64,000 bases of DNA from Dokdonella immobilis (GCF_900115085.1 NZ_FOVF01000014.1:1-64000); one strand, 5' to 3'; positions 2,358 through 24,735 are shown, counted from the stretch's first letter. Notes: generated from the sequence alone by a model not told the origin. A program made the numbers and translations.

Positions 2358-2595
2358 GGTTGAAAGAACTCTGTGGTGGTCGCAGCTGCAGTATCTACGA
2401 ATATGACTAAACCCGCGATAGTATGACGCTTATGCCAGTTGACGTATGCTTCAACAAGTTGCGCAAGGTCGATTCTGGGCGTCGCGGACAATCCTGAGAC
2501 AGCAATCAATTTCCAGTGTCCCGTGGTGAATGCGGTTGCTAGCACATGGTCAACTAATCGATACGGTAAGAGTTCTGTCTCGAACCTCGATGTGG

Positions 2596-3660: not shown

Positions 3661-3675
3661 GGTTGGCCTGTATCG

Positions 3676-4722: not shown

Positions 4723-5798
4723 TGATACTTCTCAAACATCGCGAGCTGGCCATACTCTGAAACCGCCAATGCCCGTGCTCGTGTGCGCAGTCCTGAAGCC
4801 AGGTCAGGGTCATCAATGAGTTGCCTTATGGCTCTGGCAAAAGCCTCGGGTGTCTGAGCGACCGGCAGACCGACACCGCCACCAGAACCAAGCAAATTGT
4901 CGATGCCAGCGACGTCGGAGCCCACGACAGGCAAACCCATCGCCAGGGCCTGGATCATAGAGGTGCTCAGAGTCTCCCCTGACGAGGCATGCGCGTATAT
5001 ATCGAGGCCCCTGAACCATTCCTGCAGCGCGGCTTCGCCGAGATAACCCACGAACGACACCACCTCATCAAGCTGCAGCGCGCTGACGCGCGTGCGCAAA
5101 TCTTGCAGGGTTTCCCCCACGCCGGCCAGGCTCAGCTGCCAGGCATCATTCCCGTCTTCGGCGCACAGAATCGCCATTGCATCGATCAGCAGGTCCTGTC
5201 GCTTGATCTCGGTCATGCGAGAAGCCATCCCGACTACACGCCTGGAGTTGAGTGATCCCACGGATCCACTTGGACTATAGACATCTGTGTCGATGCCATT
5301 CGAGATCACATGTACCTTGCTCTCGCGCCAGTGGCCACCCAGTCCCCGTTGCAGTTGAGCCCGGTACTCGGGTGTCAATACCACCACAGAGTCCGCGTAC
5401 CGCATCAACAATCGCGAGATCCACCATTCACTGGCGCGTTTAAGTGCATTGGCCTGATGCTCAATCGCCAGAATGGGAATCCCGTGTCGATGAGCGTACA
5501 GCGCACAGGGCAGAATTGCCTTTACGCTGTGCAGAACAATCGCATCCGGGCGAGAGCGTTCAAGCGCGCGATAGAGCGCTGGCCAGGCTAGCCAGGCGCG
5601 ACGAGGCTTGGTCCCGACATGCTGGAAGGTGATTCCGTTCGCAGTACACATGGCTCGGTATTCCGGGAGGACCGGTTCGACACCAAAAAAGATCAGGCTC
5701 GGCGCCCATGCATTTGCTGCCCGGGATGCTGCGGCGAGCGAAAAGGCCACGCTGCCATGTCCACCCAAGCCGGAATAGAGGATTTGAGTGACCATCAT
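4692..5798 (-). CDS. Family 4 glycosyltransferase
   Basis: A 368-residue GT4 enzyme. The start was set at the ATG at 5798, whose ATGA overlaps the stop of the upstream GT2. A frame open further upstream lacks any GT4-like sequence before this point. The protein opens MMVTQILYSGLGGHGSVAFS, with a glycine loop. It carries VGMASRMTEIKRQDLLIDAM in the donor-binding domain and HASSGETLSTSMIQALAMGL, whose E-x7-Q is a slight departure from the usual E-x7-E. The two Rossmann domains cover roughly residues 1-170 and 180-360. It belongs to the same run of coupled sugar transferases. Substrate unknown. Confidence 0.88.
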   Translation of the reverse strand: MMVTQILYSGLGGHGSVAFSLAAASRAANAWAPSLIFFGVEPVLPEYRAMCTANGITFQHVGTKPRRAWLAWPALYRALERSRPDAIVLHSVKAILPCALYAHRHGIPILAIEHQANALKRASEWWISRLLMRYADSVVVLTPEYRAQLQRGLGGHWRESKVHVISNGIDTDVYSPSGSVGSLNSRRVVGMASRMTEIKRQDLLIDAMAILCAEDGNDAWQLSLAGVGETLQDLRTRVSALQLDEVVSFVGYLGEAALQEWFRGLDIYAHASSGETLSTSMIQALAMGLPVVGSDVAGIDNLLGSGGGVGLPVAQTPEAFARAIRQLIDDPDLASGLRTRARALAVSEYGQLAMFEKYQCILGRLCAG

Positions 5799-6799
5799 AG
5801 CGTTGAGGCAATCTCTCGAGTCGCGCTGATCAGCATATCCTTGATGACGCTTGGAACTTTGCCGGAGGTCGCATAACCCCCATCGCGCCACAACGCCGAG
5901 ATCTCTGGAAAACGCCGATAGCGCGGCAGCGTGCGAATCGCGCACCGTCTCGCCAGATGTCGAGCTCGAGCCTCAGTACTGGCGAGGGTGCAAGTGGCAT
6001 GTTCTCTCCCCACCAGCTTTATGAATTCCTCCTGCCGTTCGGACATTCGCTGGGAAGCTGTGGCCAGGAAATTCTGCTCGTCGGCCAGCCCGCCCGAGTG
6101 AGTGGCCTTGCGAACGAGTCCTTGCGCGCGCTCAATTAGCCCTTGGATAAAATTTGGTTGCTCAAGTCGATTGACGAAAAAATCGGATGCATTGTCACCA
6201 TGTCGACGATACAGCTGGAGGCAATCATCCAGCCGTGACGTCTGGTGCAGCAAGTCAGCAGTTTGCACAAGCCAATTGTCATGTGCTCGCTGACTCGTTG
6301 GGATTGGCAGTAGGCAGGTCAAAAGACTTCGGCGGAATGCCGCGCAGCATCCCATGACCATCGCCTCGTCCGGCAAGCCAGCAGCTCGAATCTGGCCCCG
6401 CTTGGTAGTACCTGTGGGTACAAGCTCGCGGTCGGCCAACAATGCATCATTGATGAAGCAGGAGCTGTCAGGATTCCGCAGAGCCTCCTGCTCCAAAACT
6501 GCGATCTTCTCAGGCAGCCAGACATCATCCTGGTCGCTCAGCAAGACCAGGTCGCCTGTGCACAGCGACAGGGCTCGGTTGAAATTCTGGGCCACGCCTA
6601 GGCGCTGGTCGTTGATCTCAAGCCGAACCGGAAAAGGGCATGTAAGCGCGAAGGCGCGAACTATGTCGGGCGTGGCGTCGGTGGACAGGTCATCGGCCAC
6701 GACCAACTCATCTGGTTGCCGAGTTTGGCTAAGAAGGCTCTCTAGCTGCGCAGGGAGGAAAGCTGCACCGTTGAAAGTCGCCATGGCGATGGAAACCAT
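5795..6799 (-). CDS. Family 2 glycosyltransferase
   Basis: A 334-residue GT2 enzyme starting at the ATG at 6799, which overlaps the TGA of the upstream DUF616 gene (TGATG). The start MVSIAMATFNGAAFLPAQLE is the standard GT2 N terminus. VADDLSTDAT (about residues 33-42) is the nucleotide-binding loop and LLSDQDDVWLPEKI (about 86-99) holds the DxD-like metal site plus the DDVW sequence common in rhamnosyl- and related transferases. The C-terminal 120 residues are polar and basic with no membrane helix. Rhamnose transfer is one possibility, but the motif alone does not settle it. Confidence 0.88.
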   Translation of the reverse strand: MVSIAMATFNGAAFLPAQLESLLSQTRQPDELVVADDLSTDATPDIVRAFALTCPFPVRLEINDQRLGVAQNFNRALSLCTGDLVLLSDQDDVWLPEKIAVLEQEALRNPDSSCFINDALLADRELVPTGTTKRGQIRAAGLPDEAMVMGCCAAFRRSLLTCLLPIPTSQRAHDNWLVQTADLLHQTSRLDDCLQLYRRHGDNASDFFVNRLEQPNFIQGLIERAQGLVRKATHSGGLADEQNFLATASQRMSERQEEFIKLVGREHATCTLASTEARARHLARRCAIRTLPRYRRFPEISALWRDGGYATSGKVPSVIKDMLISATREIASTL

Positions 6800-7599
6800 C
6801 ACCGAATCTGCCCCTTCCGCGCCCGAAAATACCGTTGTATGCGCCACTTTGCGTGCCACGCCGCTAGAAGACCCAGATAAAAGCGGCTGTCGTAGGAACG
6901 CGCGCGCGTATGCGCATAGCGTGCCGAGACATCCAGAGCAGCAAAATGCGGGTAAACGCCGAAATAAGGGTTCTCATCACGAAAGCTTCCGGGGTTCCAG
7001 TGGTGAGGCAAGCCTGTCTTCCACAACACATACGGGAGACTGATCTGGTCGCGCGTGCCATAGCGACTATACAAGTTCCACCACAACTCCATCGCCGAGT
7101 CCAATTCGGGATGGGCGTGATTCTTGAGCAGCACCGTAGCCTCCACTAGACCTTGTCGGTCTGGAAAGCCTTCCGACAAGTAAGTGTTTAGTTCCTCTTC
7201 GATACGGCGCGCATCATCGACCTTGCCCATCTTGATGCAGGTCGCAACTTCGGACCTCACGCAATCTCTCTTCGAATGACGATAGAGTCCCACTGCCGTA
7301 CCCGTCTGAAGAAACTTCGATAAGAGCCGGGAGCTGGGCCCGAGAATGCGAACGTTTCCGTCAACATAAATGCCAGCATCGTAGCCGGTCAAAATTCGAT
7401 GACCAAGCATCTTATAGAAGCGATTTGCGATACGCGCGCTTGAAAATTGGCTGTTATCTACCAAATGCGGGCGCCAACCGCGCACATTCAAAGCGGGGTC
7501 ATCAGTTATTGCGACATAGTCGATAGACGGATCCATCTCGACGGGTGGATAGATCCGGTCGTATCCGCCAAAAACACAGGTATAAACCAGCAGCTGCAC
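6799..7599 (-). CDS. DUF616 (TOD1/MUCI70-type) glycosyltransferase domain protein
   Basis: A 266-residue protein matching the DUF616 glycosyltransferase-like family. Visible family features are an N-terminal YTCVFGGYDRIYPP, then DYVAITDDP, then NRFYKMLGH, and GYDAGIYVDGNVRI, where YVDGN stands in the place of the D-x-D metal motif. Family members are predicted GT-A-like enzymes in bacterial capsule and LPS clusters. The gene overlaps the following GT2 by one base and starts just after the decayed GT2 remnant. No membrane segment is seen. The function is taken from the family and the cluster context only. Confidence 0.8.
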   Translation of the reverse strand: MQLLVYTCVFGGYDRIYPPVEMDPSIDYVAITDDPALNVRGWRPHLVDNSQFSSARIANRFYKMLGHRILTGYDAGIYVDGNVRILGPSSRLLSKFLQTGTAVGLYRHSKRDCVRSEVATCIKMGKVDDARRIEEELNTYLSEGFPDRQGLVEATVLLKNHAHPELDSAMELWWNLYSRYGTRDQISLPYVLWKTGLPHHWNPGSFRDENPYFGVYPHFAALDVSARYAHTRARSYDSRFYLGLLAAWHAKWRIQRYFRARKGQIR

Positions 7600-7600
7600 T

Positions 7601-8470
7601 CTAGTGGTTTCCGGTAACTGTGCTGAGCGGCCTCGCCACGGCGAATTTCTCCAGCACGAAAGGAATGGCCGCTGGGACGTTCGAGGGGAAAGATGAAAAT
7701 CGGAGAGCCATCGCCTTCGGTTGCGTTCTCACCCAGTGTAGGTGCATTCCGCCGTGCATTGAAGTCATTGAGCCGTGAAGAATCAGGCGAGTGGTTTGGA
7801 CGCCACCCCGATTACGTTGGCCACAAAGATCGTTGTCTTCCGCGATTCTGGAGTGATGTGCCCAAGAGATCGCTATCTTGAATTGATATCTAACGTTCGG
7901 GTATTCAGCGCGCCTAAAAAACGCATGTTCCCTGAAGCCGTAACGCTTTAGGCGTGCGCCAAGCAGGAGCAATCCAATGAAGTCCTTTCCCTGCATATGT
8001 TTGCTGCTCTCAATCGGAAAGGGCTTTGGCCAGTCCCTACGCAACGGCGAAATGGGCGGAGGCGTAGGTCGAAGAAGGCGCGCAAGTTCGCGCTTTTCCC
8101 ATACCATTCGCGCCTTCCACTTGCTGGCTGCATGGCGCGGATCTCCGGTGACCAAGCCCGCAGCTGCTTTTATGATTCGTCACAAAAAAGACACAGAAAA
8201 ATGCTTCTTCGTCAAGCATGCAGCCGTCAAACCGGTTGAGAAAATCATGTCCCCGTTGCGTGCTCTCCCCAGTGCATGACCCGAAAGGTTTATATGAATC
8301 CGCCGGAGCCCGAATCACGGAGCCAACCTGCGCAGTACGTCCTCTAGGTTGTCGGTGGGGCCATCGAAGGCCACGATGACCTCGAAGGCCTTGTTAGTTT
8401 GCAGTCATTGCCTGTCCAGCGGTAGCGCTACCCTGCGCGCTCGGTTGCAAGTTGTAGGCAACCATACGCT
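7601..8470 (-). pseudogene. Decayed family 2 glycosyltransferase
   Basis: The remains of a GT2 gene spread over several minus-strand frames. Near 8320-8405 the translation includes NKAFEVIVAFDGPTDN, the GT2 nucleotide-binding region. Around 8100-8160 comes TGDPRHAAS, then REL-RLL, RDWPK and LKRYGFREHAFFRRAEY, which line up in order with the intact GT2 at 1458-2357 (TGGPR, REL-RL, REWPK, LKIYGF-FF-RAEH). Frameshifts separate the N-terminal parts, and a stop sits just before the NKAFEV stretch. The 3' two thirds stay open for 184 codons (7601-8155), so decay is recent or partial. It sits between two intact operon genes. Confidence 0.8.
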
Positions 8471-8473
8471 GGC

Positions 8474-9625
8474 TCATGTCTCAGCAATCTGGGGCTGGCA
8501 AATATAATCGCATATAGGTTGCATCTTGTTTTGCCAAGTGAGGTTGCGCTCGGCATAAGTGCGCATATCTGTTCCGAATTTCGGGTTATCGCTAACCAGT
8601 TTTTCATAAAAGCGCTGTACTGCAGCGATATCAAGCGGCTCCTCGGAGGCTGGAGCGTGGAATACAAATGGCAGGTTGCCTGCAAAGTCTGGATCCTTGA
8701 ATCCAAGCACGAATGGCAAGCCGCGCGCACAGTACTCACGAGCCTTGATAGTCGACGAGTCCATCATTACTCGATGTATTCCAAGGCTTGAAATCCCAAT
8801 ATGCGTAAGCGCAACGATGCCCTCAAGCTCCTGTCCGCTTTGAGGCCCCCAGAACCTTACGAATTTCTCTACGCCCTCAGCTGCCGCCAACTCTTGGAGG
8901 CTCATGCTTTCCGCACCACTCCCGACTACATCGAAGAAAACGTGGTGCTTGCCACCATTCTCGTAGTACCGGGAAAGACCGGTAATGACGCGATCATATC
9001 CATGCCACCTGGACAGGTTTGCCAAGCCGAGAAGGCGCAATCCAGCGCTCCGATCGCGATTAGCGCTGAGAGGCCAGCGCGCTGGATCGACACCATTGTC
9101 GGTTCGAATTGTCGGAACGCGGAAAATGCTTGTCTGATGAGAGAACGTAACAATTCTGTCCACCAATCGCCAAAGCATTCCTCGAAATAGGCGGTCTACA
9201 GTTTGCTTGGCTTTCTCGCGAAGGGTCTGAGATTCATTGTCGTACGGAAAGCTCGGAATTTCGATCAAAATCTTGATGCTTGGATCTGAGCGCCTCACAC
9301 GCCAAAGCATCCAAAGCATTAGCGGCGAGCAACCTTGGTAGCGGAGATAGATGTATTCCACCACTCCTAGCAAGCGTGGAACCGCTAGATAGAAAAAAAG
9401 ATAATATGTTAGGCGTCGGCGGAGCGCGCCGTAGCCAAAATGCTTGGCGACTTGCTCGTCCAGCAATATGGAGGCGCCAACTGGGTAAATCAGTCGTACA
9501 GGTCCGCCCAGCTCCTTTGCAAGTGCAACTCTCTGTCCTCGGATCTTCTCCGCTACGCCCTTCAGGTGCGGCTGGCTCAGATCCAGACGCGCTACGTAGG
9601 CACCTCTAATTGGTCGATCACTCAT
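8474..9625 (-). CDS. Family 4 glycosyltransferase
   Basis: A 383-residue GT4-like enzyme. The C-terminal half shows RLLGLANLSRWHGYDRVITG, the usual donor-binding strand, and IGISSLGIHRVMMDSSTIKA followed by REYCARGLPFVLG, which replaces the normal E-x7-E region by S-x-IKAREY. This variant is common in capsule GT4 proteins. The N-terminal half is poorly conserved and has a hydrophobic stretch around RRRLTYYLFFYLAVPRLLGV that may dock on the membrane. Its ATG overlaps the TGA of the ABC exporter gene by 4 bp, so the two are co-translated. Substrate unknown. Confidence 0.82.
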   Translation of the reverse strand: MSDRPIRGAYVARLDLSQPHLKGVAEKIRGQRVALAKELGGPVRLIYPVGASILLDEQVAKHFGYGALRRRLTYYLFFYLAVPRLLGVVEYIYLRYQGCSPLMLWMLWRVRRSDPSIKILIEIPSFPYDNESQTLREKAKQTVDRLFRGMLWRLVDRIVTFSHQTSIFRVPTIRTDNGVDPARWPLSANRDRSAGLRLLGLANLSRWHGYDRVITGLSRYYENGGKHHVFFDVVGSGAESMSLQELAAAEGVEKFVRFWGPQSGQELEGIVALTHIGISSLGIHRVMMDSSTIKAREYCARGLPFVLGFKDPDFAGNLPFVFHAPASEEPLDIAAVQRFYEKLVSDNPKFGTDMRTYAERNLTWQNKMQPICDYICQPQIAET

Positions 9626-11451
9626 GTATGCGGTGCGATTTGTAGGGAGTCAAAGACTGCTTGCCTTTCAGTGAGCAGCAACTGATAACTCGTAGTCTGT
9701 TGGATTCGGCCCTTAGCAAGATGTACGATTCGGTCGCAGTTTCTCAGCGTCGTCAATCGGTGCGCGATCATAATCATGGTCATGTCGCCCGCCATTTCGC
9801 CCAGTCCGCTCATGACCCGGTCCTCGGTGGCGTCATCGAGTGCGCTGGTCGCTTCGTCCAGCACGAGGACATCGACGCCCTTGTACAGGGCCCGGGCGAT
9901 ACCAATTCGCTGCCGCTGCCCGCCCGACAGACGCACGCCGCGTTCGCCTACCGGAGTCTGGTAGCCCTCGGCCAGTGAACACACGTGGTCGTGAATCTGC
10001 GCAATTCGGGATACCGCTTCGAGCCGGGCTTGATCGATCTTGTTTGGCGGAGTGCCGAAAGCAATGTTCTCGGCCACGCTGGCATCGCTCAGGAAGATCG
10101 ATTGCGGCACGTGGGCGATATGCTTTTGCCAGGCGGCCGCATTGGCTGGCGTTACCTTGACGCCATCGACGCTGAAGTGGCCCGATGTCGGCGACAGCAG
10201 TCCCATCAGCAGATCCACGAGCGTGCTCTTGCCGCTGCCGGTCACGCCGACGATGCCGATCTTCTCGCCGCGGCGTATGCGCAGGTTGATATCGTGCAGA
10301 ACCGGGGTTGGCGCGGTGGTCGCCTCGTATTGGAAGACCACCTGCTGCATGCAGATCTCGTTTCGGAATGGAATGGCGTCGAGATCCGGCTGCGGCAGCG
10401 GCTCGTATTCGAGCAGGTCGAGCACGTCATTCACCGAGGCCTGTCCGCTGAGCGCGGCGCTCCAGCCGGCATAGACCTGCTGGAACAGCGGCATCAGCTT
10501 TGCCGCGCCGACGGCGAGGATGCCGAGCGTCGGCAGGATGGTGTTGAAGTCGCGCCCGGTGCCGCTGAAGTAAACGGCGAATCCAACGAGCAACAACATG
10601 CCGATCGCTTCGATGGCCACCCGTGGGAACGTGCTGGTGAACTGGCTGCTGGCCTGGGCGCGGCGAAGGCGCTGTTCGATGCGCGAGAAGCGGCGCGAAT
10701 AGATTGGCTGGGCGCGGTCGAGGATCACATCGCGGATACCGCCAAGGCCTTCCTGGATGGCCTGGATACGCTGGTCGTTGGTCAGGGCGATGGCACTGCC
10801 GTTCTCGCGAAGGCGCTTGCGTACGCGCGCCGCAATCAGGAAATAACAGGCGCCAAAAGTGAAGGCGCCGGCGAGTGCTACGCCCGGGTTGATGGCCACG
10901 AGCAGCAGCACGATGGCCATGGCCACCACCAACGCGGTCGCTCCGGTCAGCAAGGGCTGCACGTAGCTGACGATCAGTTTCTGGACCTTGTTGATCGAGC
11001 CGATGATGACACTGGTGTTGTGGCTGACATGGAAACTGTAGGGGCGCTGCAAGGTGCGGGCATAGAGGCTTTCCCCGATCTCGGCGCCGAGACCGTTGGC
11101 GTAGCGGATGCTCGCCGAGAGCATCAGCAGGCGGGCCGCGGCGGCCAGCACAACCAGTCCTGCGAATACCGCGCTGACGGCCAGCGGCAACTGCGCCAAT
11201 GTCAGCCCGGTCGCAGCCATCAACCGGCCCACGATCCGCATCTTCGCGGTCGCCTCGGGGTTGGCCAGGACAGAGATGAAAGGCAACACCGCGCCGATCG
11301 AGAGCAATTCGGCTATGGCGCCGAGCAGCATGAGGCCCAGCAGCAGGACGAGCTGACGTTTACGGCGCGGCGAGAGCTGGCGCAGGAACCGGCCCAGGCT
11401 GGCGCGCAGTTCGCCCGAGGTTCGAGTGCTGGATTCCTTGCCTGTCAACAT
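9622..11451 (-). CDS. ABC exporter/flippase with fused membrane and ATPase domains
   Basis: A 609-residue half-transporter of the MsbA/PglK type, likely to flip a lipid-linked oligosaccharide across the inner membrane or to export a lipid. Six helices fill roughly residues 25-315. The ATPase domain has Walker A GVTGSGKST, the signature LSGGQRQR, Walker B VLVLDEATSALD and the switch histidine in MIAHR. The start is the ATG at 11451, after which the helix-rich region begins. Codons open further upstream show no homology-like sequence. It is the first gene of the minus-strand cluster, and no Wzx-type flippase is seen, which fits a PglK-like role. Confidence 0.88.
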   Translation of the reverse strand: MLTGKESSTRTSGELRASLGRFLRQLSPRRKRQLVLLLGLMLLGAIAELLSIGAVLPFISVLANPEATAKMRIVGRLMAATGLTLAQLPLAVSAVFAGLVVLAAAARLLMLSASIRYANGLGAEIGESLYARTLQRPYSFHVSHNTSVIIGSINKVQKLIVSYVQPLLTGATALVVAMAIVLLLVAINPGVALAGAFTFGACYFLIAARVRKRLRENGSAIALTNDQRIQAIQEGLGGIRDVILDRAQPIYSRRFSRIEQRLRRAQASSQFTSTFPRVAIEAIGMLLLVGFAVYFSGTGRDFNTILPTLGILAVGAAKLMPLFQQVYAGWSAALSGQASVNDVLDLLEYEPLPQPDLDAIPFRNEICMQQVVFQYEATTAPTPVLHDINLRIRRGEKIGIVGVTGSGKSTLVDLLMGLLSPTSGHFSVDGVKVTPANAAAWQKHIAHVPQSIFLSDASVAENIAFGTPPNKIDQARLEAVSRIAQIHDHVCSLAEGYQTPVGERGVRLSGGQRQRIGIARALYKGVDVLVLDEATSALDDATEDRVMSGLGEMAGDMTMIMIAHRLTTLRNCDRIVHLAKGRIQQTTSYQLLLTERQAVFDSLQIAPHT

Positions 11452-11925: not shown

Positions 11926-11955
11926 CTTTTCGACTGAATTGCCAGCGTGCGCCCA

Positions 11956-12447
11956 ATGGCGAAGCAACCGTCCCACCCCATGCTCGAGGCGCAGGCAAAG
12001 CGCTTCGGAACTGCACTGCGCGCTCGCCGCAAGCAGTTGGGTATCAACATGACGGCAGCCTCGGAAGCCGCAGGCATTTCCCGCGTGACCTGGCACCGGT
12101 TGGAGAAAGGCGAGACGACCGTCGCCTGGGGCTCTGTGCTGGCGGCAGCTGCCGTGCTGGACATGGCGTTCGTGATCGGCGACGACGGCACTGCCGAGGT
12201 GGAAACCCCTCGCTCGCCGGACCCGAATGCCTGGGTTCCGCTTCAGATCCGCTTGGCCGAGTACGCTGGGTTACGAGGACTGGCCTGGCAACTCCGGGAA
12301 GGACTTGAATGGCTCAGCCCTCGCGAGGCCTGGGAGATCTACGAGCGCAACGGACGGCACCTTGATACCGCCCAACTCTCGACGCACGAGCAAGCCCTGA
12401 TCACATCGTTGCGTCGACTGTTCGATCGCACGGCGGATCATGTTTGA
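11956..12447 (+). CDS. XRE-family transcriptional regulator, putative antitoxin
   Basis: A 163-residue DNA-binding protein with an XRE helix-turn-helix at about residues 20-70: FGTALRARRKQLGINMTAAS then AAGISRVTWHRLEKGE. The rest is a helical region with no enzyme motif. Its ATG at 11956 follows an in-frame GTG at 11947. It overlaps the AbiEii-type toxin gene by 8 bp, and a palindromic promoter lies immediately upstream. In this family the XRE partner represses its own operon and counters the nucleotidyltransferase toxin. That role is inferred from the arrangement. Confidence 0.85.
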   Translation: MAKQPSHPMLEAQAKRFGTALRARRKQLGINMTAASEAAGISRVTWHRLEKGETTVAWGSVLAAAAVLDMAFVIGDDGTAEVETPRSPDPNAWVPLQIRLAEYAGLRGLAWQLREGLEWLSPREAWEIYERNGRHLDTAQLSTHEQALITSLRRLFDRTADHV

Positions 12448-13165
12448 TCGTCCGCACCATCAGCGAATCGCCAGCGTGCTGTCGAGCCTGGATGGCGAGC
12501 TACTGCGAACCTTCCAGTGTTGGTTCGGAGGGGGTACCGCGATTGCACTGATGTTCGGGGAGTACAGGGAATCGGTTGATATCGACTTCCTGGTGTCCGA
12601 CGCGGCCGGTTACCGCGAATTGCGTCAGCGTCTTCGTGGCGCGCGGGATCTGTCGGCGCTCACCCGGGCCGATGTCCGACCGATAGATTGCGAGCGCGAT
12701 ATGCGCGCCGATCAATATGGCATACGCACCGTGCTTGATGTGCAAGGAACGCCGATCAAGTTCGAAATCGTGCGTGAAGCCCGCATCGCGTTCGAGGCGT
12801 CGCGACGCACGCAACGGGTATGTGGCATTTCGACGTTGTCGCGCCAGGATCTTGCCGCCTGCAAATTACTGGCAAACGCCGATCGCTGGCGTGACGACAG
12901 TGTCTTCGCGCGCGATGTCATCGACCTGGCCATGCTGGATTTGCCGCCGCGAGCGCTGAGGCCGGCCCTGGTCAAGGCCATCGCTTCGTACGGCGTGAGT
13001 GTTGTCGCCGACTTGCAATTGGCGTTGGCGTCATTGCGTGAACGACCGGAGCGGCTGCATCGGTGCCTACAGGCGCTTTCCATCACGCTGCCTGCCGCCG
13101 CCCTGCAGCAGAAACTGAGGTCGCTGGCGCGCCGCGTTGCGTCCGCGGCGGAGGGGATGGTTTGA
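12440..13165 (+). CDS. AbiEii/AbiGii-type nucleotidyltransferase toxin
   Basis: A 241-residue member of the AbiEii nucleotidyltransferase family, toxins of type IV-like toxin-antitoxin pairs that can also give phage abortive infection. The catalytic block is at residues 29-51: FGGGTAIALMFGEYRESVDI followed by DF, that is GG-x-T-x-AL with the R-x-S-x-DIDF metal-binding motif. A later KFEIVREA (about 111) and LSRQDLAACKLLANADR (about 133) match the family's second conserved block with its lysine. The toxin stop TGA overlaps the TTG start of the next glycosyltransferase, so the two may be translationally coupled. Confidence 0.85.
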   Translation: MFDRPHHQRIASVLSSLDGELLRTFQCWFGGGTAIALMFGEYRESVDIDFLVSDAAGYRELRQRLRGARDLSALTRADVRPIDCERDMRADQYGIRTVLDVQGTPIKFEIVREARIAFEASRRTQRVCGISTLSRQDLAACKLLANADRWRDDSVFARDVIDLAMLDLPPRALRPALVKAIASYGVSVVADLQLALASLRERPERLHRCLQALSITLPAAALQQKLRSLARRVASAAEGMV

Positions 13166-15408: not shown

Positions 15409-16206
15409 ATGATCGATCTGCATTGCCATATGCTGCCCGGCATCGATGACGGGGCCGTCGATCTCAAGATGGCCCTCGAGATGGCGCGTATTGCGGTGGC
15501 GGATGGGGTGCATACGGTGGCTTGTACGCCGCATATCTATCCGGGGTTGTACGAGAACAACGCGATGGGGATCCGTCGTGGCGTGGCCGAGCTGCAGGGG
15601 CGGCTCGATGCGCGGGGTATCAAGTTGCGTTTGCTTGCCGGTGCCGATGTGCATCTGGAGCCTGGCTTGTGCGAGTCGATCCGGCGTGGGCGAGTGCCGA
15701 CCCTGGCCGGGACGCGTTATCTGTTGCTCGAGCCGCCGCACCATGTCGCGCCGCCGCGTTTCGAGGAATCGGTGTTCGAGCTGCGGGCTGCGGGCTATGT
15801 GCCGGTCATTACCCATCCCGAGCGCCTGACCTGGATCGAGCAGCATTACGAGATGTTCAAGCGCCTGGCCGAGAACGGAGTGTGGATGCAGTTGACGGCA
15901 GGCAGCGTGGCTGGCCATTTCGGCAAGCAGCCGCGCTATTGGTCGGAGCGCATGCTGGATGAAGGCCACGTGCATATCCTGGCCAGTGATGGCCATCATC
16001 CCGAACGACGGCCCCCGGTGCTCTCGGAAGGGCGCGAGGCGGCCGCGCGGCGGGTCGGTGAGCAGGAGGCCACGCACCTTGTGGTCACGCGTCCGCAGGG
16101 CATCATCGACAACCTGCCGCCGGAGAAGCTGCCGCCACCGCCGTTGCCGGCCTCGAAGGGCAAGTCGACAGGGAGTTTCTGGAAGCGCCTGATTGGGGCA
16201 CAATGA
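15409..16206 (+). CDS. CpsB/YwqE-type PHP tyrosine-protein phosphatase
   Basis: A 265-residue metal-dependent phosphatase of the PHP fold, expected to dephosphorylate the BY-kinase encoded two genes downstream and so control polysaccharide length or output. Metal-binding motifs are HCHMLPGIDDG (residues 4-14, HxH), CTPHIYPG (about 40-47), a histidine in ITHPERLTWIEQHYEMFKRL, and LASDGHHPERR near residue 193. The C terminus has a proline-rich tail. Bacteria with a Wza/Wzc system often use a low-molecular-weight Wzb phosphatase instead; here the PHP type takes that place. Its stop overlaps the start of the wza-like gene. Confidence 0.88.
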   Translation: MIDLHCHMLPGIDDGAVDLKMALEMARIAVADGVHTVACTPHIYPGLYENNAMGIRRGVAELQGRLDARGIKLRLLAGADVHLEPGLCESIRRGRVPTLAGTRYLLLEPPHHVAPPRFEESVFELRAAGYVPVITHPERLTWIEQHYEMFKRLAENGVWMQLTAGSVAGHFGKQPRYWSERMLDEGHVHILASDGHHPERRPPVLSEGREAAARRVGEQEATHLVVTRPQGIIDNLPPEKLPPPPLPASKGKSTGSFWKRLIGAQ

Positions 16207-16972: not shown

Positions 16973-19300
16973 ATGGCGCCTGACAAGTTTCCGATGAACG
17001 CAAACCCCAGCGGCAGCTCGCTGCCGGCAGCGAGACCCTCCGGGCGTGCGCTGCAGCAGCAGGCGTTCAGCGAATCCCGTGCAATCGTGGCGACGCCGGT
17101 GGATGGCGCCGACTCGGGCGATGACGACGGCATCGATCTGCTCGCCTACTGGCGCATGCTGGTCAAGCGGCGCTGGCTGATTGCCGGCATCGTGGCGGCG
17201 GTGGTGGCGATTGCCCTGATCAGCACCTTGCTCACGCCTCCCACGTATCGCGCCACCGTGGTCATGCAGATCGAAGCCCAGTCCATGCAGATCATGGACG
17301 TCCAGGGCATTACCCCGGTTGGCGGATACGATCGCGATTTCAACCAGACCCAGTACGAGCTGTTGAAGAGCCGCTCGCTGGCCGAGCGCGTCGTTGGCGA
17401 TCTGCACCTGGCCGATACCAACGTGCTCGAACGACTCGAGCCGCCGAGCTGGACCGACCGCCTGCGCAACCTGCTTAACCCGGGTTCGCGCCTGCAGGAA
17501 GCGCCGGTTGCGCCTGAGCCGGCTGCCGCCGAAGGGGCCGGTGCGGACGCTGTGGACCCGATACAGAAGCTGCGCGTGGCGACCGCCCAGGTGCAGAGCG
17601 GCGTGACCGTCAGCCCGGTCCGCGACTCGCATCTGGTGCGGGTCAGCTTCGATAGCCTGTCCCCGGCATTTGCCGCGCGCGTGGCCAACGCGCTGGCCGA
17701 CGGCTTCATCGCCTCGAGCATGGATCGCCAGTTCGGGGCTTCCTCGTATGCCAAGAAGTACCTCGAGGACCAGCTCGCCCAGCTCAAGTCTCAACTCGAG
17801 GATTCGGAGCGCGCTCTGGTCTCGTTCGCGCAGAAGGAGGACATCGTACCGGGCGCCGACGGAACCTCGCTGGTCGGCCAGAACCTGGTCAGCCTCAATG
17901 CCTCCCTGGCCGAGGCGCAGCAGCAGCGCATCCGCGCCGAGGCACGCTGGCGAGCGGCGAGCGGTGCCAGCGGCGCCACGCTGCCGGCCGAGATGTTCGT
18001 CGATTCGCCGGTGCGCATCCTGCAGCAGCAGCGCGCGACGCTGCAGGGGCAGTACCAGCAGAAGCTGCAGGTGTTCAAGCCCGACTATCCGGAAATGCTG
18101 GCGCTGAAGAGCCAGATCGACGAGGCGTCGAGGCAGATCGACGTCGAACTGAAGAACATGCGCGCCTCGGTCAAGGCCGAGTACGATTCGGCGCTGGCGC
18201 AGGAGAAGCTGCTGGTCGAGCAACTCGACAGCCTGCGCTCGCAAACGCTCGAAACGGATCGGCGCAGCATCCAGTACAACATCTTCAAGCGCGACGTCGA
18301 TACCAACCGCCAGCTCTACAACGCCCTGCTGCAGCGCTACAAGGAAGTGGGCATGGCCGGCGGGGCCAAGCCGAGCAATATCTCGATCATCGACCGCGCC
18401 GAGGTGCCGAAATCGCGCTTCAAACCGAGCCTTTCGCGCAACCTGATGATCGGCCTGGCGCTGGGCCTGCTGCTCGGGGTCATGCTCGCGCTGTTGCTCG
18501 AATACATCGACGATACGCTGAAGACGCCGCAGGACATCGAGCAGCATCTGAAACTGGTGGTGCTCGGCATCATCCCGAAGCTGGCCCGGCAGACCCCGCG
18601 CGAGGCGCTCAACGATCCGCGTTCGGCGTTCTCGGAAAGCTACCGCTCGGTGCGCACGGCCCTGCAGTTCTCGACCGACCGCGGCGTGCCGAAGGTGTTG
18701 CTGATCACCAGTCCGGCCGCTACCGAGGGCAAGTCGACCTCGGCGCTGACCCTGGCCAACAACTTCGTCCAGCTCGGCAAGCGCGTGCTGCTGATCGAGG
18801 GCGACCTGCGCAACCCGTCGCTGGCCAAGGCCATGGGTCTGCCCCGCGGTCCCGGTTTGAGCAGCCTGCTGTCGGGCGCGAAATCCCTCGCGCAATCGGT
18901 GACTCATACGGACAACCAGAAGCTCGACGTGATCCTGTCCGGGCCCCTGCCGCCGAGCCCGACCGAGCTGCTGGCCGGTTCGCGCCTGGTTTCGTTGTTG
19001 CTGATCGCGGCGCAGAAGTACGACCAGATCATCATCGACGGTCCGCCCGTGCTCGGCATTGCCGATGCGCCGATCCTGGCCAATGCCGCGGTCGGAACCC
19101 TGCTGATCGTGCAGTCCGGCTCCTCGCGGATCAGCTCGGCGCAGGCCGCCATCAAGCGTCTGCGCGTGACCCACGCGCGCCTGATCGGCTGCCTGCTGAC
19201 CCAGTACGACGCCAAGGCCAGCGGCTATGGCTACGAGTACGAGGGCTATTACGCCTATGGCGGCTCGACCAAGCTGCTCGAACGCAAGGCGCGTAGATGA
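16973..19300 (+). CDS. Wzc-like polysaccharide co-polymerase and tyrosine autokinase
   Basis: A 775-residue inner-membrane BY-kinase that controls chain length and export of the polysaccharide. The Wzz domain is flanked by two helices, at about residues 62-82 and 486-506. Between them lie long coiled-coil stretches (about 255-450). The kinase domain has Walker A SPAATEGKST (about 578-587), Walker A' VLLIEGDLRNP (about 605-615) and Walker B IIIDGPP (about 686). The C terminus has a tyrosine cluster, YGYEYEGYYAYGG (about 752-764), the autophosphorylation tail. It follows wza by 35 bp and its stop overlaps the J-domain gene. Confidence 0.92.
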   Translation: MAPDKFPMNANPSGSSLPAARPSGRALQQQAFSESRAIVATPVDGADSGDDDGIDLLAYWRMLVKRRWLIAGIVAAVVAIALISTLLTPPTYRATVVMQIEAQSMQIMDVQGITPVGGYDRDFNQTQYELLKSRSLAERVVGDLHLADTNVLERLEPPSWTDRLRNLLNPGSRLQEAPVAPEPAAAEGAGADAVDPIQKLRVATAQVQSGVTVSPVRDSHLVRVSFDSLSPAFAARVANALADGFIASSMDRQFGASSYAKKYLEDQLAQLKSQLEDSERALVSFAQKEDIVPGADGTSLVGQNLVSLNASLAEAQQQRIRAEARWRAASGASGATLPAEMFVDSPVRILQQQRATLQGQYQQKLQVFKPDYPEMLALKSQIDEASRQIDVELKNMRASVKAEYDSALAQEKLLVEQLDSLRSQTLETDRRSIQYNIFKRDVDTNRQLYNALLQRYKEVGMAGGAKPSNISIIDRAEVPKSRFKPSLSRNLMIGLALGLLLGVMLALLLEYIDDTLKTPQDIEQHLKLVVLGIIPKLARQTPREALNDPRSAFSESYRSVRTALQFSTDRGVPKVLLITSPAATEGKSTSALTLANNFVQLGKRVLLIEGDLRNPSLAKAMGLPRGPGLSSLLSGAKSLAQSVTHTDNQKLDVILSGPLPPSPTELLAGSRLVSLLLIAAQKYDQIIIDGPPVLGIADAPILANAAVGTLLIVQSGSSRISSAQAAIKRLRVTHARLIGCLLTQYDAKASGYGYEYEGYYAYGGSTKLLERKARR

Positions 19301-20889
19301 GCACCGATGCGCTGGAACTGGCGATGGCCTTGCACCAGGCGCCGATCCAGCGCTTCGCCCTGCGCGATCGCCCGTTGCCCGAGAACATGGGGCTGGCCTT
19401 GCAGATCGCCTCGGCGACCCAGCCACAACTGGAAAATGCCGCGGCGCTGTTCTCGGAGCCGGAAGAGACCGTTCTCGAGGCGGTCCGCTTCTACCTGCAC
19501 CAGGTCCTGTTCGAGCCCGGCACGGATGCGTACCGGGTCCTCGGCCTTTCCCCTGCCGCGGAAAGCAAGCAGATCCGTCAGCACTACATCCTGTTGCAGC
19601 GCTGGCTGCATCCGGACCGGCGTGGCGAGGATTGGGAGGCAGTGTTCGCGACCAAGGTCAACTGGGCCTGGCAACAACTGCGCAACCCGAAGGCGCGCGA
19701 AGCCTACGACGGCAGCCGTGGGCCGGAGTTGCCCGCAAGCGTTGAGGATTTGCCCGATGTCGGGGCCATGCCGCTGCCTGCCTGGAGCGCCGAGCCGGTT
19801 CGTCGAACCACCCGCCATTGGCTGCGAGGGATCACGATTGGCGGCTTGCTGCTGTTTTGCGCCGGCCTTTTCTATCTCGCGGTCACGCGCGATGACTATC
19901 TGGAGTCGGACGCGCAGGCCCTGCATATCAGCGAACCGGTTGCACCACCGCAAGCCACCTCGATGGGTGTCGCTGCGGGTGGCGGTGCGACCAACGCAGG
20001 CGACTCGATATTCACGGCGCGCCCGGATTCGGGGAGCACGGAGAGTGGCGAGACACGACCCTCGGACGGCGATCGTGGCGAACACCCGATCGACCGCGCA
20101 GAGACCGCCCTCGTCGAACCGGGCCCGCACACCGAATTGCCGCAGGCGACCGAAACCGATCCGGGCAATTCCAGCACACCCGCGGCATTAACCCGGCCGC
20201 CGCGCGCGGATCGGCCCGTGGCCGTGGAAGCCGATCCGGCGCAGGCAGGTCGCGTTGCCCACGCTTCCGGCGATTCATCGGCCATCGGCCAGGCGTCGGC
20301 CTATCCGCGATCGAGCCGGCGCGGCAATCAGCTTCGCGAAGGGTCGACGATGCTTGCCCACTCCGGCTCGGTTTCCTCCGCTAACGAGGAAGTCGCTGTC
20401 GTGCCGGCGAGTGATCCGGTGGATGAGGCAACGGCGCCGGCGTCGTCGCCGGAAATGGTCACGGATGCCGAGGGCGCGCGCGATGCCTTGGCCTCGACGG
20501 ACGCACCGCCGGGCCCGTCCTCGGTGGCGGCCGCGCCCAGTGAGGATGCGGTCGAGCGATTCGAGATGGCGCGCGAGCGCCTGCGGAGCATGGTCAGCTA
20601 CCTTCGCAGCAAGACGGCCGAGCTGCCGCAATGGAGCGACATGCCCGGTCAACTCACGGCCGAACGCGAGCGCAAGGCGCTGCACGCGCGAAATGGCCAT
20701 GTGGACATCGATCGATTCGCCCTGGATCCGCCGACCTGGCGGATGTCGGATGCGGCCGTCGCGCTCGAGGCGACTTACCACGTCGATGCCGACAGGAAGG
20801 TCGCCGAAAAGGGGCGGTTCTACCTCGACATGGCCTGGCGCGACGGCGACTGGAAGATCACCCGGATGAAGATGCTGCCAACGCCATGA
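19297..20889 (+). CDS. Membrane-anchored J-domain protein
   Basis: A 530-residue protein that starts within the wzc stop (ATGA). A J domain spans about residues 77-145: AYRVLGLSPAAESKQIRQHY, then LHPDRRG with the HPD that stimulates DnaK ATPase, then FATKVNWAWQQLRNPKAREA. A single helix follows (about 173-195, ITIGGLLLFCAGLFYLAV). Next is some 230 residues rich in Pro, Ala, Ser and Thr, probably disordered and periplasmic. A C-terminal domain (about 420-530) contains AVALEATYHVDADRKV and FYLDMAWRDGDWKITRMKML, resembling an NTF2-like or DUF4440-type fold. A J domain tied to an exopolysaccharide kinase operon suggests chaperone-assisted assembly, but this is inference. Confidence 0.82.
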   Translation: MSTDALELAMALHQAPIQRFALRDRPLPENMGLALQIASATQPQLENAAALFSEPEETVLEAVRFYLHQVLFEPGTDAYRVLGLSPAAESKQIRQHYILLQRWLHPDRRGEDWEAVFATKVNWAWQQLRNPKAREAYDGSRGPELPASVEDLPDVGAMPLPAWSAEPVRRTTRHWLRGITIGGLLLFCAGLFYLAVTRDDYLESDAQALHISEPVAPPQATSMGVAAGGGATNAGDSIFTARPDSGSTESGETRPSDGDRGEHPIDRAETALVEPGPHTELPQATETDPGNSSTPAALTRPPRADRPVAVEADPAQAGRVAHASGDSSAIGQASAYPRSSRRGNQLREGSTMLAHSGSVSSANEEVAVVPASDPVDEATAPASSPEMVTDAEGARDALASTDAPPGPSSVAAAPSEDAVERFEMARERLRSMVSYLRSKTAELPQWSDMPGQLTAERERKALHARNGHVDIDRFALDPPTWRMSDAAVALEATYHVDADRKVAEKGRFYLDMAWRDGDWKITRMKMLPTP

Positions 20890-22109
20890 GACGGGTCGCC
20901 ACCGGCGCGGCCTGGGCGATCGCGTTGACGCTTGCCGCCGTGGCCTGCTGGCGCATCGTTGTCACGGGCATCTCGGACCGGCTCGCATCCGATAAGCCGC
21001 AGCGGGCACTCGACTGGGATCCGGCCAATCCGGTGGCGTTGGCCGCCCTGGCCCAACAGCAACTGGATCGGAAGGAATGGGCCGCCGCGCGGGCGTCGGC
21101 CTTGCGGCTTCTGCATGCCGAGCCGCTCTCTCCGGAGGGATTCGTCATCCTGAGCAAGGTGGCTGTTGCCGAAGGCGACATGGAGCAGACCGAGACGCTT
21201 TCCAGTATCGCCCTGCGGCGCGCGCCGCACGCGCTCGGGCCGCCGGCGTGGCTGCTCGGCCAGCAACTGGAGCAGGGCGACTATGCGCAGGCGCTCGATC
21301 TGGTCGATCGCATCTGGCGCATCGCGCCGGGGATGCAGGCCAGGATCCATCCCGTGCTGATGGCGCTGGCCGAGAAGCCGGCGTTCGCCGATGCGCTGGC
21401 CGAACGATTGACCTTGAAGCCGGTATGGCGGGCCAGCCTGATCAATTCGATGATGATCAAGGGCAGCCCGGAGGCCATCGAGCATGTGTTCTCCGCGCTG
21501 CAACGACGCGATGCGCTGGATGCGGGGGAAATGGGGCAGTGGATCGACCGGCTGGCGAAGGATGGCGCGTGGGGCGAAGCGTATGCGCGCTGGGCAGGAG
21601 AATTGCCATTGTCCGAAATGAATACCTTGCGCAGCGTCTACAACGGCGGCTTCGAGAGCGAGCCCAGCGGGACAGGCTTCGATTGGCGCATCGGCAAATC
21701 CGTCGATGTCATCATCGATCGCGAGAGCCTGGCGGGGGCGGACGGATCGGCGGCGCTGCGGCTGCGCTTCCTGGGGCGCAGGACCGAACGCATTCCGCTG
21801 CACCAATGGTTGCTGCTGGCTCCCGGCGAATACCGGTTGCGCTTCCGGGCCCGCGCGCAGGACGTACGCAGCGATCGCGGCCTGCAGTGGACCGTGCGCT
21901 GCCTGGATGGTCGAACTGAGCTGGCGACGGCCGATGCCGTGAGCGGAACCTTCGACTGGACCGAACGGGCGGTCGACCTTGTGGTTCCGGAGCGTGATTG
22001 CCGGGTGCAGGATCTCGAATTGCGCAATGCCGGGTCGAAGGGTTCAGGCAAGATCGTCTTCGGCACGCTCTGGTTCGACGATATCTCTATTGATCGGATC
22101 AACCGATAA
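20886..22109 (+). CDS. TPR-containing protein with C-terminal carbohydrate-binding-like domain
   Basis: A 407-residue protein beginning at ATG 20886, which overlaps the J-domain stop. An N-terminal hydrophobic segment (GAAWAIALTLAAVACWRIVV) anchors it in the inner membrane or acts as a signal. Helical TPR-like repeats cover about residues 35-240 (for example NPVALAALAQQQLDRKEWAA). The last 160 residues form a beta-rich domain: VYNGGFESEPSGTGFDWRIG, where NGGFE-x-x-x-x-GF-W is typical of carbohydrate-binding jelly rolls, then FDWTERAVDLVVPERDC. It probably scaffolds polysaccharide assembly. No enzyme motif is visible. Confidence 0.78.
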   Translation: MRRVATGAAWAIALTLAAVACWRIVVTGISDRLASDKPQRALDWDPANPVALAALAQQQLDRKEWAAARASALRLLHAEPLSPEGFVILSKVAVAEGDMEQTETLSSIALRRAPHALGPPAWLLGQQLEQGDYAQALDLVDRIWRIAPGMQARIHPVLMALAEKPAFADALAERLTLKPVWRASLINSMMIKGSPEAIEHVFSALQRRDALDAGEMGQWIDRLAKDGAWGEAYARWAGELPLSEMNTLRSVYNGGFESEPSGTGFDWRIGKSVDVIIDRESLAGADGSAALRLRFLGRRTERIPLHQWLLLAPGEYRLRFRARAQDVRSDRGLQWTVRCLDGRTELATADAVSGTFDWTERAVDLVVPERDCRVQDLELRNAGSKGSGKIVFGTLWFDDISIDRINR

Positions 22110-22644
22110 GTTCGATTCGCGAGCCACCCTGGACAATGCATGTCCGATTCCCGATGCCACTCGATCAGGAGGACCCGCAAGAGCACCCCCTCATCCCCCC
22201 TGCGAGGATTTCTCCCGCCAGCGGAAGAAGGGAAACCGCGCAAGCTCGCCCGATGAAACGCCTTGCCCGCTGGCGGGAGAGGCTGCCGACAGGCTGGCGA
22301 GGGTGGTCGGGCGAAGCGGCAATTCCACGCGTGCGATGCAAGTACATTGGGGTAAGCGCAGCACACCCCAGCGCCCCTGATAGGATCGGCGGCGCATGAG
22401 CCCCTCGACGTTGGGGTTCGCTCGCGCTCACCGCCAACTTACATTCCGCACTTACCCGGGGTTCGAGAGTCGATTCAATTCGGGGCGCTGAACCGGATTG
22501 CCTGGAGGGCTCGTCGGCTGCGGTGGCGCGACACGGGAGTTGGGGGTGGGTTGGCTGGGCTTCGGACTTCTGGGCTGAGCGTTTGCCTTGACACAGGGCG
22601 TGATCTAGACTAGCCGCGACTGGAATTGGCGCAGGAGCATTGCA
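22110..22644. repeat. Gene-free stretch with dispersed repeats
   Basis: A 535 bp interval. The first half holds diverged copies of the window's intergenic repeats: about 22205-22232 (TTTCTCCCGCCAGCGGAAG) and 22262-22310 (GCTGGCGGGAGAGGCTGCCG followed by ACAGGCTGGCGAGGGTGG). I see no supported gene. The segment 22560-22644 just before the next gene probably carries its promoter: TTGACA occurs at about 22587 and TAGACT at about 22607. Confidence 0.7.
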
Positions 22645-23124
22645 ATGAACCCCTTGGTGATCCGCTCGTTGGTACTGGGCATCGCCGTCATGGGCGTTTC
22701 CATGCCACTGCACGCCCAGATGATGGCGCCGGAGCCGGCTTCGTCGCCGAGCGCCGAGACGCCGGTTGCGAACACGGTCGCCGAAGTACGTACCGATGGC
22801 GGAGTCGTCATGGTCAGCAATGGCGGTCCGTTCCAGACCGCGGTTCCTGGCCAACGGGTCGACGCCAAGGCCCGTCTCATGGTGTCCAAGGAAAGCGCTG
22901 CAACGGTCATCTACGATGATGGCTGCAAGCAGACGTACGACAAGCCGGGCGTCTACCCGATCAACGAGACCTGCGTGCTGCCGCCACCGCCAGTGGCCGC
23001 CGCGGGCAGCAGCGCGGGCGCGCCGAAGTGGCTCATCGGCACCGGCGTTGCGATCGGCCTGTATGCCATCGTCGACAGCCTCAACGACAACGACAACAAC
23101 GACCAGTTGCCGGTCAGCCGCTGA
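22645..23124 (+). CDS. Small secreted or membrane-anchored protein of unknown function
   Basis: A 159-residue protein that I do not recognise. It has a signal peptide (residues 1-25, cleaved after LHAQ). A short beta-rich core follows: VRTDGGVVMVSNGGPFQTAV, then GQRVDAKARLMV and ATVIYDDGCKQTYDKPGVY. This is reminiscent of the FecR/SH3-like iron-dicitrate-sensor fold but much shorter. Two cysteines (YDDGC and NETCVL) could form a disulfide. Near the C terminus a single helix (WLIGTGVAIGLYAIV) precedes an Asp/Asn-rich tail. It lies between the TPR protein and the O-antigen-ligase-type gene, so a part in polysaccharide assembly is possible. Confidence 0.7.
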   Translation: MNPLVIRSLVLGIAVMGVSMPLHAQMMAPEPASSPSAETPVANTVAEVRTDGGVVMVSNGGPFQTAVPGQRVDAKARLMVSKESAATVIYDDGCKQTYDKPGVYPINETCVLPPPPVAAAGSSAGAPKWLIGTGVAIGLYAIVDSLNDNDNNDQLPVSR

Positions 23125-23325
23125 GCCGGCGCAGCGCTGGCACGCTGCATGCGCCGTCTGCAACCCACGAAGGCCTGGCGTGAACGCCGGGCCTCTTTCA
23201 TGAGTGCGATGCGCGGCCACGTGCGGGGATTGCCGTGACTCTGGTGCGCGGCGACGCCCGCGCCGTGCGTGGGTTCGATTCAATGACGTCGGCTGCGCGA
23301 ACCCTTGTGGAGCGAGTCTCCAAAC

Positions 23326-24735
23326 ATGGTGGCTGATGGCGGAGCGGTGCGTGGCGAGCGTGCGCTGGCGATGTCCGGCGCGTTGCTGCTGCTGGTCTGC
23401 TTCTGCAGCGGCGGCAACTCCGCACAAGGGAATTGGGGGACGACGATATCGGGGTTGCTCGCGGTGCCGCTGCTGGTCGTTGCGGCTCATCGGAGCGGCG
23501 CGTTCGCACGCAGGGGCCTGGTCCGCTGGGGCGCCCTGGTCGCGGCTGCGATCGGTCTGCTTCCGTTGTTGCAGTTGTTGCCGATTCCGGACTGGTTGTG
23601 GAACCTTCCGCTGGCGCGGCGACCCTTGCTGCAGGATCTCGAAGCGGCCGGTATCGTTGCGCCCGATCGTCGCTGGTCGCTGACCCCCGGCGCCACCGAG
23701 CGCGATCTATGGTTCCTGCTGCCGGGTCTCGCGCTGTTTTTCTGCGCGCTCGCGGTGCGTCGCAGCGCCTGGCGTCCCATGCTCTGGTTGGTGGTAGGCC
23801 TGGCCTTGGCCAACCTCCTGTTCGCGGCGGCGCAGTTCGCTGCCGGCAAGGACAGCATCCTCAACCCGTATCCGGATTTCGCGCCGGCCTGGGGTGGCAT
23901 TTTCGCCAACACCAATCACCAGGCTGATCTGCTCGTGATCGGCCTGATGCTGGCCCTGATGTTTCTGGCGCATGCCTGGCGGCGCTCTCGCGAGACCGGC
24001 CATTTTGGCGTCGCGTTCGTCGTGCCGGCCACGCTCGCGCTGATGTTTGTCGCGGCCTTGCCGGTGGTCGGGTCGCGAGCGGGTGTCATCGTGGCGATGA
24101 TCATGCTGATGGGCGTGACCCTCGGTTCGGGACTGGCCAGGCTGCGCGCCATCCGAGAAAGCCGCACGCTGCAGATCGGCGCGCTGCTCAGCGTGGTCGT
24201 CTTCGTCATTGGTTTGCAGGCTGCGGTGGGCTGGTTGCGGATCGATGCAGGCGATCCGACCGTCAAGTACCCGCGCTCGAGGATGTTGATCGAAACGCTG
24301 CGCGTGGGTGCCGAACACGCCCCGCTCGGTGCAGGGGTCGGCGGCTTCATGCCGGCCTACCAGCAAGGGGCGCGCAACGAGGGGCTGATGAATGTCTACG
24401 TCAACAACGCCCACAACGATTACGCGCAATGGTGGCTCGAGGCCGGTATCGCCGGCATCGCGATTACCCTGCTCGCCCTCGGCGTGCTGGTTTCGACGCT
24501 GATCCGCCTGCTGCGTCTTCCGCCCGGCTCGGGCACGCGCAGCTCCGGGTTGGCGGCGATGATGGGGATCGGTGTGATCGTGCTGCATTCCATGGTGGAC
24601 TATCCGCTGCGCACCCAGGCCCTGATGGCGATATTCGCGGTGCTGGCCGGCATTGCGGTGGCCGCGGCCAGTGCCGAGCCGGTATCGCCTCGACGCCGCG
24701 GCAGGCGTCGTCTCGGCGCAAGCCCGGCGGAGTAA
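23326..24735 (+). CDS. O-antigen ligase/polymerase family membrane protein
   Basis: A 469-residue polytopic protein with about eleven helices and the Wzy_C/O-antigen-ligase family loop. The key periplasmic region near residues 330-372 reads GAGVGGFMPAYQQ, then NVYVNNAHNDYAQWWLEAGI, where the HND-Y sequence is the conserved ligase/polymerase motif. It may polymerise the exopolysaccharide repeat or ligate glycans to a carrier. ATG 23326 is preferred. An in-frame TTG at 23305 would add 7 residues. The C-terminal tail is Arg-rich and cytoplasmic. It closes the plus-strand export operon. Confidence 0.85.
   Translation: MVADGGAVRGERALAMSGALLLLVCFCSGGNSAQGNWGTTISGLLAVPLLVVAAHRSGAFARRGLVRWGALVAAAIGLLPLLQLLPIPDWLWNLPLARRPLLQDLEAAGIVAPDRRWSLTPGATERDLWFLLPGLALFFCALAVRRSAWRPMLWLVVGLALANLLFAAAQFAAGKDSILNPYPDFAPAWGGIFANTNHQADLLVIGLMLALMFLAHAWRRSRETGHFGVAFVVPATLALMFVAALPVVGSRAGVIVAMIMLMGVTLGSGLARLRAIRESRTLQIGALLSVVVFVIGLQAAVGWLRIDAGDPTVKYPRSRMLIETLRVGAEHAPLGAGVGGFMPAYQQGARNEGLMNVYVNNAHNDYAQWWLEAGIAGIAITLLALGVLVSTLIRLLRLPPGSGTRSSGLAAMMGIGVIVLHSMVDYPLRTQALMAIFAVLAGIAVAAASAEPVSPRRRGRRRLGASPAE

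Follow-up and report, generated by a model that had tools for sequence, protein, structure and literature searches.

Among the described J proteins with one membrane helix, ARC6/Ftn2, a division protein of plastids and cyanobacteria, combines a J-like domain, the helix and a folded far-side domain, which is the general layout of the protein described here. The tail-anchored class-C proteins DjlB and DjlC have a cytoplasmic J domain and one membrane helix; they partner HscC and are not known to have a conserved helical lead, a periplasmic domain or a polysaccharide locus. Canonical Wza-Wzc-Wzy systems encode Wza, a tyrosine-tailed Wzc, a phosphatase and a Wzy_C protein in one locus and operate without a J or TPR partner. 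One proposal for Wzc is a cycle in which a dephosphorylated octamer alternates with phosphorylated monomers (PMC8285477). In E. coli, the inner-membrane J protein DjlA, acting through DnaK, loosens the IgaA-RcsD complex of the inner membrane and so raises capsule synthesis (PMC11709261), and in Myxococcus, the Hsp70 homologues SglK and StkA control EPS (PMC4319316).

Here, we analyze a stretch of 64,000 nucleotides from Dokdonella immobilis (NZ_FOVF01000014.1:1-64000; hereafter, the window), in which the components of a canonical locus are accompanied by a J protein and a TPR protein (Table 1). Neither J proteins nor Wzc systems are new as such; the novelty lies in the constant pairing of the two and in the J-helix-NTF2 arrangement. 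The open-access literature yielded no paper that ties a J protein to Wzc (most subscription journals lie outside that coverage).

A J protein encoded in a polysaccharide export locus

The window encodes an OPX protein, a BY-kinase with Wzz, GNVR and AAA parts and a tyrosine-rich C-terminal tail (YGYEYEGYYAY), and a Wzy_C protein, that is, the hallmarks of an export locus, and the initial annotation of Wzc, Wza, CpsB and Wzy_C is sound by Pfam. The ATGA overlaps noted there are present as well: the J frame opens with the ATG at 19297 and Wzc ends at 19300, and the TPR frame opens with the ATG at 20886 and the J frame ends at 20889. Overlaps are limited to these two junctions, and the next, small ORF begins 535 bp past the TPR gene. 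The label 'TPR/carbohydrate-binding-type' stands in its first half; no carbohydrate-binding Pfam family was matched, and the C-terminal part of the protein, although conserved, is carbohydrate-binding-like by eye only. The FecR identity proposed for the 159-aa secreted protein was rejected, Pfam being blank for the window protein and three homologues.

Table 1 Genes of the export locus in the window and domains of the J protein
Feature	Position	Strand	Basis
CpsB/CapC-type PHP phosphatase (likely Wzc phosphatase)	15409..16206	+	Pfam CpsB_CapC E 3e-52
Wza-type OPX lipoprotein, short, 244 aa	16203..16937	+	Pfam Poly_export E 1e-25, SLBB
Wzc-type tyrosine autokinase	16973..19300	+	Pfam Wzz, GNVR, AAA_31; NCBIfam TIGR01007 E 1e-43
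J protein, 530 aa	19297..20889	+	
J protein: N-terminal helical extension, residues 1-75	19297..19521	+	conservation; model
J protein: J domain, residues 77-138	19525..19710	+	Pfam DnaJ E 2.3e-10
J protein: HPD motif, residues 105-107	19609-19617	+	within J domain
J protein: transmembrane helix, residues 178-196	19828..19884	+	mean hydropathy 2.1 over 19 residues
J protein: disordered spacer, ~residues 210-412, probably periplasmic	19924..20532	+	pLDDT mostly <55 (AlphaFold)
J protein: C-terminal NTF2-like domain, residues 415-530, probably periplasmic	20539..20886	+	pLDDT ~90
TPR protein, one N-terminal hydrophobic helix and conserved C-terminal domain	20886..22109	+	TPR_19 E 5e-6
Small secreted protein, 159 aa, no family match	22645..23124	+	homologues in several modules
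Wzy_C membrane protein (O-antigen ligase/polymerase type)	23305..24735	+	Pfam Wzy_C E 1.6e-10; start codon uncertain

As initially proposed, the J protein contains a J domain with an intact HPD, followed by one helix, a long disordered spacer and a C-terminal NTF2-like region, the latter three supported by hydropathy and the AlphaFold model. The J domain had been taken as N-terminal but is actually internal, being preceded by about 75 conserved residues, among which P16, R25, P28, A62, Q69 and F72 are invariant in eight homologues. This extension is modelled with high confidence as five helices, residues 1-145 folded alone reach a pLDDT of 93, and the structure match lists for this extension-bearing part are filled by J domains. 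The J domain itself superimposes on a DnaK-bound J domain (5nro_B) with an rmsd of 1.4 A over 62 residues (Z 9.7). The hydrophobic stretch, flanked by basic residues before and acidic ones after, is the only strong one in the protein and lies within a modelled helix spanning residues 168-208. The C-terminal domain belongs with the NTF2-like structures, many of which it matches with Z of 10-11.6 (VIA-align), and Pfam SnoaL_2 was matched in 10 of the 37 J-family members.

The HPD occupies the loop connecting helices II and III, the matches to NCBIfam DnaJ models are confined to the J part, and Pfam detects DnaJ only, with neither a zinc finger nor a DnaJ C-terminal domain. By these sequence features, the protein would be a class-C J-domain protein, for which stimulation of an Hsp70 ATPase is predicted. 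Among the known membrane J proteins, DjlA differs in that its J domain is C-terminal and follows a TerB domain, it acts on a regulator, it is not encoded with wzc and it lacks an NTF2-like domain; in the window protein, the helix comes after the J domain and Pfam shows no TerB match. The tail anchor of DjlB and DjlC is not seen either, the helix being internal with a tail of more than 300 residues, and one full-length Hsp70 was found in the genome. For ARC6, there is no Pfam match to an ARC6-type domain in the window J protein, and Foldseek gives a weak match (E 0.013) of the far-side domain 5d9r somewhere in the model.

In alphaproteobacteria, the protein is short, with about 170-255 residues. 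These forms comprise the extension and the J domain, some with a C-terminal helix, and lack the NTF2-like domain; they look similar to DjlB and DjlC with their J domain and one membrane helix. The extension and J domain thus form the shared core, and the periplasmic NTF2-like domain appears to be a lineage-specific gain or loss.

Conservation of the neighborhood and its link to one Wzc clade

A protein search of 60 relatives added seven homologues whose match extends past the J domain, and at all eight of these first loci, the window included, the J gene is directly 3' of wzc and is followed by the TPR gene, which is a conserved partner within the J modules. More homologues came from profile searches at the level of the order and the class, and the wza-wzc-J-TPR order is common to the order-level loci and several distant families. 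A collection scan, in which each species was represented by a single genome, returned 46 loci. Two of them are ordinary DnaJ and two begin at a contig end; wzc lies directly 5' of J in 42 of the 42 scorable loci, from Lysobacterales and Alphaproteobacteria, with most gaps below 20 bp. Some genomes were shared with the profile searches, and the counts are therefore kept separate. Carriers include Arenimonas, Luteimonas and Tahibacter and, among alphaproteobacteria, for example, Kaistia, Bosea and Aestuariivirga. Together with a divergence in step with Wzc (see below), this constancy strongly supports the claim that the J protein is built into the polysaccharide export operon.

In 200 genomes of the order, all scorable full-length J matches adjoin wzc. 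Seen from the kinase side, a J neighbor is present at 20 of the 113 Wzc-type loci that passed the kinase model, adjacency being scored by manual coordinate comparison and one of the 20 being partial, at a contig end; this is a lower bound for J-like partners because one family has a divergent, HPD-keeping J after wza-wzc-TPR. Divergent J proteins that keep the HPD were seen at three loci, after the TPR gene at L216 and L217 and apart from wzc at L215. With 93 of the 113 loci devoid of a full-length J neighbor, the idea that J is a partner of wzc in general was rejected, and both J and TPR are absent from the inspected E. coli-type and other short-Wza loci of the order.

In a maximum-likelihood tree of Wzc (56 rows; seven E. 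coli-type sequences were excluded because their match was too short), the J-linked Wzc and two J-less ones form a single clade, with 100/100 support, against nine J-less Wzc. The two exceptions, L211 and L235, carry a Wzc of the J clade without a J gene, so that J is dispensable there; at L211 (4491-7851), the TPR gene directly follows wzc with no J between, and the other is a second, J-less wzc of its genome. Distances between J proteins correlate with those between the cognate Wzc (r 0.78 over 36 modules, a value reached in 0 of 999 permutations), but other gene pairs of the module correlate as well, and the correlation therefore shows shared descent rather than contact. By these sequence comparisons, J accompanies one Wzc/TPR subtype almost constantly and is not tied to wzc generally. 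The initial annotation held that J neighbors both rare and random would speak against coupling; they are rare within the order, as counted above, and far from random, being confined to one Wzc clade. An unusual tyrosine tail was dismissed as the reason for the presence of J: the tail of every module Wzc is tyrosine-rich, yet so are those of ordinary Wzc.

These data bear on two of the possible explanations. Chance adjacency with no functional link can draw on a sole point, namely, that a minority of wzc loci carry J, and is refuted in practice by conservation: the adjacency extends across two classes, the junctions overlap or nearly so, the divergence is correlated and the module is also found on a conjugative plasmid, so that we give this explanation almost no weight. 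A role in biogenesis or quality control, with DnaK recruited while Wzc, Wzy or the TPR protein is being synthesized or inserted into the membrane and with J remaining outside the working machine, would fit the gene overlap, which suggests translational coupling to wzc, and the known ability of Hsp70 to guide membrane proteins (PMC8215388). Such a role would not require the conserved periplasmic NTF2-like domain, the majority of Wzc in this order do without J, and we consider it improbable.

The plasmid in question is a conjugative Bradyrhizobium plasmid that, by public annotation, carries the wza-wzc-J order (L274 5446-12377; NZ_CP094524.1), with a hypothetical protein in the place of the TPR gene and an O-antigen ligase also adjacent. 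At another locus (L125, genome G452, 5241-11166), the wzc and J frames are broken, which could reflect either decay of this module copy or sequencing errors.

The HPD motif and possible roles of DnaK

Of the 30 module J proteins found by profile and not by motif, 26 have the HPD, a count that is biased in favor of the motif, as the sequences behind the first profile all kept it. Among order-level members recovered by profile, the HPD is kept strictly and the arginine after it nearly so. The HPD is also kept in the alphaproteobacterial forms, but the pattern used in the collection scan itself selects HPD, and conservation in that scan was not counted. The equivalents of R22, D35 and R36 of DnaJ, of which R22 and R36 are DnaK contacts, are mostly kept, and the position of R27, another known DnaK contact, is non-basic in every member compared. 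The genome encodes one clear full-length DnaK, near a J-domain gene; a second full-length Hsp70 was not found in the genome, the sole other match to the Hsp70 family being weak and partial. Because the HPD and the next arginine are kept and one clear DnaK is available, involvement of DnaK with the J protein is plausible on sequence grounds. A further J-domain match (E 3e-7) lies on contig C55 of the same genome (L213 1433-4669) within a frame of 1,100 aa that is possibly spurious.

We suspect, giving it about an even chance, that the J protein is a dedicated class-C co-chaperone of one Wzc subtype that brings DnaK to loosen the Wzc assembly. The extension and J domain would reside in the cytoplasm, at the inner membrane beside the Wzc kinase, and in Gammaproteobacteria, the single helix and disordered tether would join this part to the periplasmic NTF2-like domain. 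The extension probably recognizes Wzc, or the Wza-Wzc-Wzy complex, and the HPD would bring DnaK to the cytoplasmic face of Wzc. There, DnaK would loosen the assembly, most likely the kinase octamer or the tyrosine-rich tail, which could help the assembly and disassembly cycle proposed to drive polymer synthesis and export. This proposal is modelled on the analogy with DjlA and on the octamer/monomer cycle of Wzc. Several observations count against it, namely, the single HPD-less clade described below, the non-basic R27 position and the J-less L211 and L235, and the canonical Wzc of E. coli cycles without a linked J protein.

DnaK is phosphorylated on tyrosine in B. subtilis and E. coli, which are not known to have such an operon J protein, and this counts against the view that J presents DnaK to Wzc as a kinase substrate and thereby ties polymer export to stress. 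Nothing in the analysis points to DnaK phosphorylation, and we deem this view very unlikely, its support coming from the phosphorylation of DnaK by the BY-kinase PtkA in Bacillus subtilis (PMC11194573) and from the phosphotyrosine carried by E. coli DnaK (PMC3681748).

The co-chaperone reading touches on the octamer/monomer cycling of Wzc during polymer synthesis: retention of J with one Wzc branch across two bacterial classes suggests possible active remodelling of the export machine by a chaperone, and if one Wzc clade has a J protein of its own, a contribution of Hsp70 to resetting that machine would become testable. Known J proteins would also gain a J/NTF2 architecture that spans the membrane.

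HPD-less modules and wider relatives

In four modules (L102, L264, L113 and L265), the HPD is lost with Wzc and TPR in place. These form one nested clade on the Wzc tree (98/98), inside HPD-keeping lineages, so that a single loss suffices to explain them. The clade has retained the operon position without the HPD, which shows that the conserved role is not bound to involve DnaK in every case. The HPD-less proteins differ in make-up: at L102 (8085-10601), a response-regulator receiver domain is inserted between the J-like domain and the membrane helix; the protein in the J position at L264 (8145-10673) is similar in length to that of L102; and at L113 (7418-9967), two tandem extension-plus-J-like domains, neither with an HPD, are encoded between wzc and the TPR gene.

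This clade keeps alive the main and strong rival to a co-chaperone, a DnaK-independent adaptor in which the J fold would serve for docking, in the manner of Pam16 or ARC6, with the HPD retained in some lineages only. Such an adaptor would use the periplasmic NTF2-like domain to link Wzc with the TPR protein and perhaps with the polymer path. Receiver and tandem J-like domains in modules that keep Wzc and TPR are compatible with this role, as are the wider HPD-less relatives, which preserve the J fold and C-terminal domain at OPX/YjbH loci or in XrtA-type ATPase fusions. However, a bare adaptor would not need the strict HPD and near-strict arginine of the order-level members, and the tree gives a single HPD loss nested inside HPD-keeping lineages; we regard the adaptor as a serious possibility, if clearly the less probable of the two. 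The natural HPD-less relatives offer a ready-made comparison. A more speculative extension, which we rate as rather unlikely, is a polysaccharide export machine driven by a chaperone, in which J is an inner-membrane-spanning subunit that couples ATP cycles of DnaK to turnover of the Wzc octamer and senses the growing polymer with its periplasmic domain, the derived clade having swapped the chaperone link for another input, such as the receiver domain or the tandem J-like domains.

The distant HPD-less relatives retain the J fold, the helix and the C-terminal domain. Some adjoin YjbH-like genes, identified as such by reading the sequence, and long OPX genes. In seven of these relatives (L103, L106, L108, L110, L111, L269 and L270), an ATPase of the XrtA/PEP-CTERM system type (TIGR03015) is fused before the J-like domain, helix and NTF2-like end, and some of the seven are among those next to YjbH-like and long OPX genes; the window J protein has no ATPase and keeps the HPD.

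Other features of the window were observed at and around the locus. The Wza protein is just 244 aa long and seems to lack the helical outer-membrane pore domain of classical Wza, which may make a separate beta-barrel necessary. Immediately upstream of the polysaccharide genes (11947-13165), an HTH_31 regulator gene overlaps that of an AbiEii-type nucleotidyltransferase (E 2.6e-22), forming an AbiE-like toxin-antitoxin pair. The GC content is 0.54-0.59 in positions 1-10000, compared to about 0.66 elsewhere in the window, which suggests recently acquired DNA.
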